This document shows positions 124-46,686 of a stretch of 51,435 nucleotides of DNA, piece by piece. A program made the translations under genes and the position numbers. The stretch is taken from assembly GCA_030740435.1 (NCBI GenBank), contig JASLXG010000149.1:1-51435 (forward strand), given 5' to 3'. The stretch comes from Alphaproteobacteria bacterium (GTDB lineage Bacteria; Pseudomonadota; Alphaproteobacteria; UBA2966). Position 1 is the stretch's first letter. Each line of letters begins with the position of its first letter. The notes beneath the pieces are model-generated. The model did not search any database. It was not told the origin of the DNA and saw only the letters and a program-made list of their open reading frames with translations.

Positions 124-137
124 TTGTCAACGGACCC
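1..137 (+). mobile_element. right end of an IS5-family (IS427-like) insertion sequence
   Basis: The window opens inside an insertion sequence. The transposase C-terminus runs to 123 and is followed by a short tail ending in ACGGACCC. Read on the minus strand the tail gives GGGTCCGTTGACAATT, which resembles terminal inverted repeats of the IS427 group of IS5 elements. The other end lies outside the window, so the boundary at about 137 rests on one terminus only. It directly abuts the CTAG border of the palindromic element at 135-312. Confidence 0.6.
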
Positions 138-312
138 TAGAGCAGCGCCCGGTTAGATTTACCCATTCTGATACCCTGCGGCGGGTCCTTTTGATCCGAG
201 GCGGCGTCGGCGGGCTTGCGTGTAGTCCCACTACACGCTGAGCCCACCTCCTACCCTCGGAGCAAAATGCCTCCGTCAGAATGGGTAAATCTAACCGGGC
301 GATGCTCTAGGG
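135..312. repeat. 178-bp palindromic MITE-like element with CTAG borders
   Basis: Arms 135-171 and 276-312 are inverted repeats of 37 bp with one mismatch. Outer ends read CCCTAGAGCA and TGCTCTAGGG. Between them lies a second perfect hairpin: a 9-bp stem 218-226 / 230-238 with a CCC loop (GTAGTCCCACTAC core). There is no coding capacity, so a transposase supplied in trans would be needed. TA at both borders is what an IS630/Tc1-type transposase leaves. The element supplies the stop codon of the minus-strand gene at 307-1341. Confidence 0.75.
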
Positions 313-44437: not shown

Positions 44438-45379
44438 TCAGGCCGTGAGGGCCAGGGGGAGCTTGAAGCGGACGTCCTCGCGGACCGCCTCGAGGAGCTC
44501 GACGCTGACCTCGAAACGCTGGCCCAGCACCGCCAGCAACTCCTCGACCAGGTGTTCGGGAGCCGAGGCACCGGCGCTGAGGGCCAGCGTCGCAGCACCA
44601 TCGAGCAACGCCCAGTCGAGATCGGCGGCACTTTCCACCAGTTCGGCCCGGGGGCAGCCGTGGCGCCTCGCCATCTCCACCAGGCGCAGCGAATTCGACG
44701 AGTTGGGGGCACCTACCACCAGGCAGACGTCGGCCCGCGCCGCCGCCTGCCGCACGGCTTGCTGGCGGTTGGTGGTGGCGTAGCAGATGTCCTCCTTGGT
44801 CGGCGCCTGGATACCCGGAAAGCGGCGCTCCAGCACGGCGATGATCTCGGCCGCATCGTCCACCGACAGCGTCGTCTGGGTCAGGTATGCCAAGTCCGCC
44901 GAGCCCGGCACCAGGCTTTCGGCCGCCGCCACGTTTTCAACCAGCAGCACGGCACCATTGGGCAACTGGCCCATGGTGCCGATCACCTCGGGATGGCCGG
45001 CGTGACCGATGAGCAGACACTGACGTCCGGCTCCATGGTGGGCCTCGGCCTCGCGGTGGACCTTGGAGACCAGCGGGCAGGTGGCGTCGAGCCATTCCAA
45101 ACCACGCCGCGCCGCCTCGGCCGGCACCGTCTTGGCCACGCCGTGGGCAGAGAATATCACCACGGCACCATCGGGCACCTCGTCAAGCTGGTCGACGAAG
45201 ACCGCGCCTTTTTGCTCGAGCCCGGCCACCACGGTGCGGTTGTGCACGATCTCGTGGCGCACGTAGACGGGGGCGCCCCGGCGCTCCAGCGCCGCCTCGA
45301 CGATCTGGATGGCCCGGTCGACGCCGGCACAAAAGCCGCGGGGGCTGGCAAGCAATACGGTGAGTGGCGCTTTGGGCAT
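44438..45379 (-). CDS. ispH: 4-hydroxy-3-methylbut-2-enyl diphosphate reductase
   Basis: Last step of the MEP pathway, making IPP and DMAPP. The 313-residue protein has the three Fe-S cysteines Cys17 ([12 protein letters not shown]), Cys101 ([11 protein letters not shown]) and Cys199 ([10 protein letters not shown]), plus HEIVHN and LIGHAGHPE. It is full length. The start ATG at 45379 is conserved. The palindromic element at 45413-45692 begins 33 bp upstream and could affect its promoter. Confidence 0.97.
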
Positions 45380-45412
45380 GGCGATCGAACCCGGGGAACT
45401 GAGGCAGCATTC

Positions 45413-45692
45413 TAGCCCGCATTTCTCACCGGGTCATGGCCTGCGTCGCCCCCAGGTGATGCGATCCGAAAGGAAAAGACCGAAGAGCGTAGTGGGACTA
45501 CGCGCTTCGGTCTTTTGCCAAAGCGGACGCGCGGCTGGGGGCGACCCTTCGGGCGCCGCTGTCGCACCGACAGGGTGTGTCACGCTGCTTGCCCGATGTC
45601 CCACATCGCGCGGCGCAGCCAAAGGTCCCTGGGCCTACCCTGTCGGCGCGACAGCGACGCGCAGGCCGTAACCCGGTGAGAAATGCGGGCTA
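45413..45692. repeat. 280-bp composite palindromic element with CTAG borders
   Basis: Outer 33-bp arms 45413-45445 and 45660-45692 are inverted repeats with 2 mismatches; the borders read CTAGCCCGC and GCGGGCTAG. Inside are: a long hairpin 45474-45516 (AAAAGACCGAAG ... CTTCGGTCTTTT, tip AGTGGGACT); a 20-bp inverted repeat 45557-45576 / 45637-45656 with one mismatch; and, within it, CGATGT-CCC-ACATCG (45594-45608). No coding capacity. It lies between the ispH and lipoprotein starts. The GTCCCAC/GTGGGAC hairpin tips also occur in the element at 135-312. Confidence 0.75.
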
Positions 45693-45724
45693 GGCCCGGA
45701 TTTCTCACCGGGTCATGGCCCGCG
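45691..45724 (+). repeat. extra half-arm copy beside the composite palindrome
   Basis: TAGGCCCGGATTTCTCACCG and onward to 45724 repeats the left arm of the element at 45413-45445 with a few changes, directly after its right arm. It may be the remnant of a second, adjacent copy. Confidence 0.65.
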
Positions 45725-45821
45725 CTGGCTTTCCTTGCGTGGCGTCCGGGGCTCACATACAGTCCCCGGGAGCAAAGGGCGAAGCGACGGGCGCCAGCCT
45801 CGAGAAGCGAAAGGAAAGGGC

Positions 45822-46361
45822 ATGCTGAGGCCGCACCGGGGGGTGTTTGCCGCGCCGCTGTTGGCGCTGCTGCTGGCCGGCTGCGGCCCGGACGGGCTGC
45901 TCTCCAAGCAGACCAACATCCCCTGCCCCGCCATCATGCTGCTGGGCGAGGCCGAACGGCTGACCCAGTTCAAGGAAGGTGATGGCCGCGACCTGATCGA
46001 CGTGCGCTACGAGGCGACGATCTCCAACCTGGTACTGCAGTGCGTCTTCAAGGAGGGCCGGGTCGAGGTTGTCGCCAGCTTCGATCTGGTGGCCACGCGG
46101 GGCCCGGCGGCTCGCGGCCGGGTCGGTGAGTTCCCCTTTTTCGTCGCCGTCACCGGCCCCGAAGGCGGCGTCATGGCCAAGGAGGTCTTTTCCAGCCGCC
46201 TCGAATTCGGCTCCAACCGCCGGCGCACCGGCGTGGTCGAGCAGATCGAGGAAATCATCCCCCTGGCCAAAGGCCAGAAAGCCGAGGATTTCGAGGTGCT
46301 GATCGGTTTCCAACTCGCCCCCGACCAGCTCGAATACAACCGCCGCCGCCGCGGCCGCTAA
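45822..46361 (+). CDS. lipoprotein of unknown function
   Basis: A 179-residue protein. Residues 1-20 are a type II signal peptide with lipobox LLAGC (Cys21), so a lipid-anchored envelope protein. The mature part has a conserved-looking core: CPAIMLLGEAERLTQFKEGD, IDVRYEATISNL, and an Ig-like beta-rich C-part with GEFPFFVAVTG. I do not recognise a named family. AAAGGAAAGG precedes the ATG at 45822. The frame is open upstream to 45735, outside the lipobox distance. It ends 130 bp before the glycine riboswitch. Confidence 0.8.
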   Translation: MLRPHRGVFAAPLLALLLAGCGPDGLLSKQTNIPCPAIMLLGEAERLTQFKEGDGRDLIDVRYEATISNLVLQCVFKEGRVEVVASFDLVATRGPAARGRVGEFPFFVAVTGPEGGVMAKEVFSSRLEFGSNRRRTGVVEQIEEIIPLAKGQKAEDFEVLIGFQLAPDQLEYNRRRRGR

Positions 46362-46490
46362 GCCGTGCGGCGGCCAAGCCGCACGGCGGCCCGCGCGGCG
46401 GGAATTTCGCAAGATTGATCCTGGCCACCCGGCCGTCTATCATCACCAACATCGCGCGGCACCTCCGGTGCCTCGTGACCAGACAGATGA

Positions 46491-46686
46491 GGCCTGCGGG
46501 AGAGATCGGTTCGCCGGCGCCGAAGGAGCAACCGCCCCGGAAACTCTCAGGCAAAAGGACCGCAGGCGGATGGCACTCTGGAGAGCGGGCGCCGGCTTCG
46601 ACCCGGCGCCCCACCGAAGGGGTAAACCGGCAGGCGGCATATGCGGCGGCTGGCTAATCTCTCAGGTCCCGGACAGAGGGGGCTAA
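46491..46686 (+). promoter_or_regulatory. tandem glycine riboswitch
   Basis: Aptamer 1: P1 strands CCTGCGG (46493-46499) and CCGCAGG (46560-46566) enclose GGGAGAGA, GCCGAAGGAGCAA and AAACTCTCAGGCAAAAGGAC, the glycine-aptamer core. Aptamer 2: ACTCTGGAGAG, then CCACCGAAGGGGTAAACC and ATCTCTCAGGTCCCGGACAG (ending 46676), with the tail GAGGGGG. Both copies keep the core in the usual order, so this is the tandem, glycine-sensing type that turns on glycine cleavage genes. The gcvT start is about 65 bp downstream. Confidence 0.93.

Follow-up and report, generated by a model that had tools for sequence, protein, structure and literature searches.

The common view of MITEs is that each derives by deletion from a single transposon and has an interior peculiar to itself. 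NEMIS, ERIC, RUP and Nezha are MITEs of 70-300 bp that carry terminal repeats, are non-coding and intergenic, and adopt strong secondary structure (PMC3733652). GTAG- and CGTC-tagged REP dimers consist of inverted hairpin pairs with short conserved unpaired tags, and the CGTC type, which is common in Alphaproteobacteria, has 8-9-bp stems that start with AT, loops of 4-5 bases and a CCA tail (PMC3733652). RIME sequences (Rhizobium-specific intergenic mosaic elements, Osteras et al. 1995) are palindromic intergenic repeats of Alphaproteobacteria. IS1380-family ISs (PF13701 / NF033539) are about 1.6 kb long and hold a transposase gene; their terminal repeats are of the type CCCGG/CATTTCTCA..., and they use YTAR target sites.

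The element reported here shares its terminal repeats and target sites with the IS1380-family ISs, but it is only 274 bp long, is gene-less and contains a folded cassette. Its inverted hairpins with unpaired tags recall the REP dimers, from which it differs in having a 94-nt module and terminal repeats of 25-35 bp at YTAR sites (PMC3733652). Unlike NEMIS, ERIC, RUP and Nezha, it belongs to a set in which one interior layout recurs across unrelated terminal repeats, families and classes. No description of the module was found in Rfam or the searchable literature, and the closest systems found are the GTAG- and CGTC-tagged REPs (PMC3733652). If a relative has been described before, it is most likely to be found among the RIMEs; these are rhizobial, and the module likewise occurs on an Agrobacterium plasmid. 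The element thus appears to be an IS1380-type MITE whose double-module interior is undescribed and widely shared, although relatives may be known by another name.

The element occupies positions 45416-45689 of the window, by which we mean the whole 51,435-nt stretch of alphaproteobacterial DNA that was analysed, and is bounded by CTAG tetranucleotides (Table 1). No transposase frame is present in its 274 bp. Its left neighbour is ispH (PF02401; minus strand, 44438-45379) and its right neighbour a predicted plus-strand gene (45822-46361) that matches no Pfam or NCBIfam family. The first-pass annotation had described nested palindromes at this place, and every repeat that it listed was recovered on measurement. 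The outer inverted repeat is 34 nt long and 94% complementary (45412-45445 / 45660-45693), the arms of the long hairpin match at 95%, the inner repeat, first given as 20 bp, extends to 24 nt at 92% (45553-45576 / 45637-45660), the small hairpin at 45594-45608 is present, and the extra half-arm comprises 31 nt with 94% identity to the left arm in direct orientation. A further nested pair (45445-45455 / 45535-45545; 11 nt, 100%) had gone unlisted. Folded as RNA, the sequence reaches -226.5 kcal/mol, where shuffled versions average -145.5 (z = -15.2), and DNA folding gives z of about -15 on each strand against shuffles, well beyond chance. Some 11 nt are inserted near 45620 in module B of the window copy. 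The adjoining half-arm is probably, judging from its letters, what remains of a further copy that ended at this CTAG site.

Table 1. Features of the element near ispH and of a related element in the same window
Feature	Position	Strand	Basis
Second related element, one module (183-276), AGCA-type ends flanked by CTAG	135-312	+	cmsearch R1, 66.1 bits, E 1.2e-12
Left target tetranucleotide CTAG (YTAR)	45412-45415		Motif at both ends in most of 26 aligned copies; related IS1380 element duplicates exactly 4 bp (YTAR)
Left terminal inverted repeat, IS1380-like (CCCGCATTTCTCACCGGGTCATGGCCTGCG)	45416-45445	+	104 matches of its 19-mer in own genome; ends of IS1380-family elements
Module A, degenerate inverted copy of the structured module, includes hairpin 45474-45516	45445-45542	-	cmsearch R1 with the full model, unfiltered: 23.6 bits, E 0.0047
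Tip hairpin of module A, 20-nt arms	45474-45516		Varies on both sides among copies
Mini-hairpin linker (CCCTTCGGG) between modules	45543-45555	+	RNA and DNA folds; gap 11-15 nt in 45/53 elements
Module B, structured module, conserved core 45589-45608	45556-45660	+	cmsearch R1, 64.7 bits, E 2.5e-12; alignment A1
Right terminal inverted repeat	45660-45689	-	Repeat analysis
Right target tetranucleotide CTAG	45690-45693		Motif at both ends in most of 26 aligned copies
Solitary terminal-repeat remnant adjoining the element	45694-45724	+	94% direct repeat of left arm; no element sequence after it

Two further observations concern the surroundings of the element. A promoter-like match (ATGACC, 17 nt, TAGAAT; 45437-45409, minus strand) spans the left terminal repeat and the CTAG and points toward ispH, so that the insertion might supply a promoter. 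Further to the right, a tandem glycine riboswitch (RF00504, 76.8 and 39.4 bits; 46487-46680, plus strand) lies upstream of a glycine-cleavage T-protein-like gene.

About 40 places in the element's own genome (G000) match a large part of it, and many copies occur in G001, a second species and the sole other genome of the genus in the comparison. The 19-mer ATTTCTCACCGGGTCATGG from the terminal repeat occurs 104 times in G000 at no more than 2 mismatches, and its reversed control 0 times. Among 60 relatives searched with BLAST, other genera hold short fragments at most and clear matches fall within one genus. An exact 16-mer of the terminal repeat was found among 385 genomes of the class in the element's own genome only, which indicates that the terminal repeat is lineage-specific; the module, as shown below, is not. 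Twenty-six complete copies were aligned over 270-292 bp, and these have the form YTAR, CCCGCATTTCTCACC ... GGTGAGAAATGCGGG, YTAR.

Comparison of the two species establishes that the element is, or was, mobile. At the ispH locus G001 lacks it (61 bp, against 324 bp in the window), and when the flanks of 15 insertions were queried together, seven orthologous sites proved to be uninterrupted in whichever of the two species lacks the insertion, cases being found in both directions. The alignments are partly noisy, and L067 (CTAA) and L126 (CTAG) are the clearest. Empty sites contain one target-like tetranucleotide (CTAA, CTAG, CAAG and similar) and filled sites two, the empty ones being centred on a single YTAR/TA site. 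The right flank of L053 (query 1927-1963) holds a different short repeat, about 37 bp long, that is present dozens of times in G000 and G001. In the window's family, the central TA is retained on both sides in 19 of 26 copies, and the base adjoining the element is almost always G (left) or C (right). The element is thus short and non-coding, with 30-nt terminal repeats, dispersed copies and empty sites, as is typical of MITEs. These results, together with the covariation reported below, exclude a single-copy sequence whose stems fail to covary, and they uphold the proposal of a non-autonomous transposable element, to which the IS1380-type terminal repeats also point.

The terminal repeats of the window's family, CCCG[C/G]ATTTCTCAC, match the IS1380 ends CCCGGATTTCTCAC. 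Full-length IS1380-family elements of other Alphaproteobacteria (G070, G100) end in CTAG, CCCGGATTTCTCA; a member of the same family in G006 has one TTAG, and that in G049 has IS1380 ends with CCCGGATCTTTCAC. The complete genome G080 carries an intact IS of 1638 bp that is recognised by the IS1380 equivalog NCBIfam NF033539 (393.9 bits). Its eight intact copies are flanked by exact 4-bp duplications, namely CTAG in six cases, CTAA/CTAA in one and TTAG/TTAG in one, and the two non-palindromic cases fix the duplication length of this IS at 4 bp, YTAR. At the MITE, the 4-bp flanks are identical in only 10 of 26 copies; mutation, homogenisation of the ends or a 2-bp duplication could contribute to the mixed flanks. 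Because its terminal repeats match those of intact IS1380-family transposons of other Alphaproteobacteria, we class the window element as an IS1380-type MITE.

The element shares its repeats with autonomous IS1380-family transposons of related genomes. In G000, whose assembly is 98.6% complete and fragmented, no transposase belonging to the matching IS1380 subgroup was found. The IS1380 content found there consists of fragments of another subgroup, so that the partner is deduced from relatives. One such fragment, fused on contig C225 to a MITE copy without a right end, was rejected as the autonomous partner because its transposase, at 94-96% identity, belongs with a subgroup whose ends differ and because the junction lies at a contig end. 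Two contigs of this genome (L090, 1500-1643 of C225; L091, 1-140 of C52) end at the same base inside the transposase of the other IS1380 subgroup. In G001, matching ends that lie 1.2 kb apart on contig C11 were also discarded as an IS, since no transposase was recognised on reading the long frames between them. An IS1380 element with an internal deletion (L197, 603-1137, in G003; about 535 bp) has matching ends and is possibly a MITE in the making. The structured module is absent from all three full-length IS1380 elements tested.

The interior of the element was characterised through its conserved fold. Within the window's family, stems vary on both sides yet stay paired at 15 positions. A search for the 20-mer TTGCCCGATGTCCCACATCG across 84,980 species genomes returned 64 places; alphaproteobacterial MAGs account for almost all of them, and a single isolate, Thalassobaculum fulvum, is represented. 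The letters flanking the 20-mer differ wholly between genomes while complementarity is kept. A gap-free module alignment of 26 sequences and 94 columns has 89.3% of cells paired against 66.4% when shuffled, and 203 cells changed on both sides against 65. Its covariation score is 0.554, compared with 0.138 for shuffled alignments and no more than 0.125 with partners slid. The 20-mer served as the search key and is invariant in this alignment; in a wider set its stem also varies in pairs. Single sequences folded without the model adopt the same nesting. The module thus defined comprises 94 nt, three nested stems and conserved unpaired letters (CGTY, CTTGC, CCT), and the strong covariation of the inner stems answers the question that the first reading had left to an alignment of copies.

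With R1, a covariance model of the module, a second module copy was found on the opposite strand in most elements, which mostly measure 259-273 bp overall. Module A of the window is weak, and its equivalent position gives a strong R1 match in other elements. The cassette also occurs between non-IS1380 ends (TAGAGCAnnTnC..., TAGTACCyC..., TAGTGGCTCGACACAGAG..., TAGGGTCCGGACCC..., ATACCAAG..., AGTGGACAGGG...) and is accompanied by at least six unrelated terminal repeats, nearly always adjoining TA. A single genome can hold two end types, since the window itself includes the AGCA-type relative listed in Table 1. No IS-sized pair with AGCA-type ends was seen in G370 among about 100 of 109 matches listed; contigs C7, C8, C14, C15, C17 and C30 of that genome end at or inside elements.

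The distribution of the module is wide. Of 385 genomes drawn from across the class, R1 detects it in 38, usually at least several times per positive genome, with no more than 11 candidates scored in any one. In a phylum-wide sample of Pseudomonadota, 22 of 398 genomes are positive, 11 of them outside the class. Three loci from outside the class that were read (L303, L305, L308) repeat this architecture, with ends enclosing a module, a mini-hairpin and a second module in inverted orientation; a lone match, L306, may be false. Plasmid and phage records yielded no match to the window element, and other queries matched one Agrobacterium plasmid and, weakly, one Rhizobium plasmid. A contig labelled Verrucomicrobia (L254) carries this Rhodospirillaceae-type element and is probably mis-binned.

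We put at roughly three in four the probability that the joint explanation is correct, namely a gene-less MITE moved in trans by an IS1380-family enzyme and carrying a folded two-module cassette. The terminal repeats, the copy number, the empty sites, the target motif and the match to IS1380 ends are direct observations for the MITE. Its mover, we infer from the likeness of the ends, would be a DDE transposase of the IS1380 family, with the CCCG[C/G]ATTTCTCACC terminal repeats as its recognition sequence and YTAR sites (CTAG, TTAA, CTAA, TTAG) as its targets for insertion. The two inverted modules and the mini-hairpin give each DNA strand the module in both polarities, making the element insensitive to the orientation of insertion. 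In other genomes the same cassette recurs between unrelated terminal repeats and is thus kept independently of the transposase. Our best guess, from pairing statistics, is that the cassette acts as a DNA hairpin or cruciform which may be exposed in single-stranded or supercoiled DNA and bound by a host or transposition factor, thereby aiding spread of the element.

The strongest competing account is that transposition has spread the cassette as a structured RNA, whose role could be in trans, in mRNA stabilisation or in the titration of a protein; with inverted modules, a read-through transcript from either direction would contain one correctly oriented module. The strong conserved fold with its covariation, the conserved unpaired letters and the mostly intergenic placement all agree with this account, which we consider possible while leaning against it. 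RNA stems usually accept G-U pairs. Among 50 representatives of less than 80% identity, 1456 of 1637 cells are Watson-Crick (796 when shuffled), in an alignment fitted to the model so that pair counts lean toward structure; the others are 32 G-U, 60 A-C and 89 of other kinds. G-U is thus rare (2%, or 3.7% on the other strand) and not favoured, which hints at a constraint on a DNA hairpin rather than on RNA, although the comparison with A-C is only suggestive, as a few columns dominate the A-C count. For the same reason, and because A-C on the model strand is G-U on the opposite strand (60 against 32 the other way), the counts are compatible with RNA. Against the RNA account, DNA folds equally well on both strands and orientation to genes is inconsistent. 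A known RNA family was rejected, as Rfam gave no match to element or module above the gathering score and only chance-level miRNA matches at a relaxed threshold. Of the first-pass suggestion of a structured RNA, the structure and its covariation stand, with the balance leaning from RNA towards a DNA hairpin.

Gene context, obtained with a simple codon-based gene finder, is unremarkable. Forty elements have readable surroundings, of which 35 are intergenic and 5 overlap predicted genes. The intergenic ones lie in 15 tandem, 12 divergent and 8 convergent gaps (background gaps: 53, 25 and 21), and no clear orientation bias relative to genes was seen in the 40. This looks like ordinary MITE tolerance and not terminator function. 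No intrinsic terminator (GC-rich hairpin, then at least 5 T in 8 bases) is present in 45300-45900, and the element is multi-copy and mobile; a terminator alone was dismissed, in line with the first reading.

The inner fold could also be functionless, with template switching in replication repairing quasi-palindromes and the MITE being a mere parasite. Such correction would yield exchange of one Watson-Crick pair for another without G-U intermediates, so the scarcity of G-U fits it as well as it fits a DNA-hairpin constraint, and the gene context agrees. Correction does not, however, account for unpaired letters that are conserved, for a module length of 94 nt, for a spacing of 11-15 nt or for the recurrence of one layout beside unrelated ends in distant genomes. 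Since the unpaired letters and the fixed geometry disfavour correction alone, we regard this account as unlikely.

It is very improbable that the modules are REP-like hairpins arranged as a head-to-head, BIME-like dimer, which a tyrosine transposase of the REP-associated kind would have moved or copied and around which terminal repeats would have been placed later. Head-to-head pairs do resemble REP dimers, CGTY stands on one side of the module, many copies have CCTAC (GTAG in the complementary strand) opposite it, and both REP types occur in Alphaproteobacteria (PMC3733652). But REPs are 20-40 bp without terminal repeats, the module is a 94-nt unit inside them and not a 20-40-bp GTAG-tagged hairpin, and the stem, loop and CCA tail of CGTC REPs (PMC3733652) all misfit the module consensus; duplicated YTAR sites with IS1380-type ends point to a DDE enzyme.

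For the IS1380-type MITE with its folded cassette, the significance lies in what is conserved, as here the interior is kept and the ends change across distant genomes. The covariance model uncovers a repeat class largely missed by sequence search, with BLAST confined to one genus, and the presence of elements at many contig ends makes the class relevant to the assembly of draft genomes. The role of a folded DNA cassette in the spread of mobile elements becomes testable. A broader proposal, which we hold to be rather doubtful, is that these elements form a pan-proteobacterial superfamily of roughly 265 bp, defined not by its letters but by a shape made up of outer arms, two inverted hairpin modules and a mini-hairpin, with swappable ends and folded DNA recognised by a host or transposition factor. 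If this is true, an element lineage could swap its terminal repeats and so change its transposase partners over evolution.
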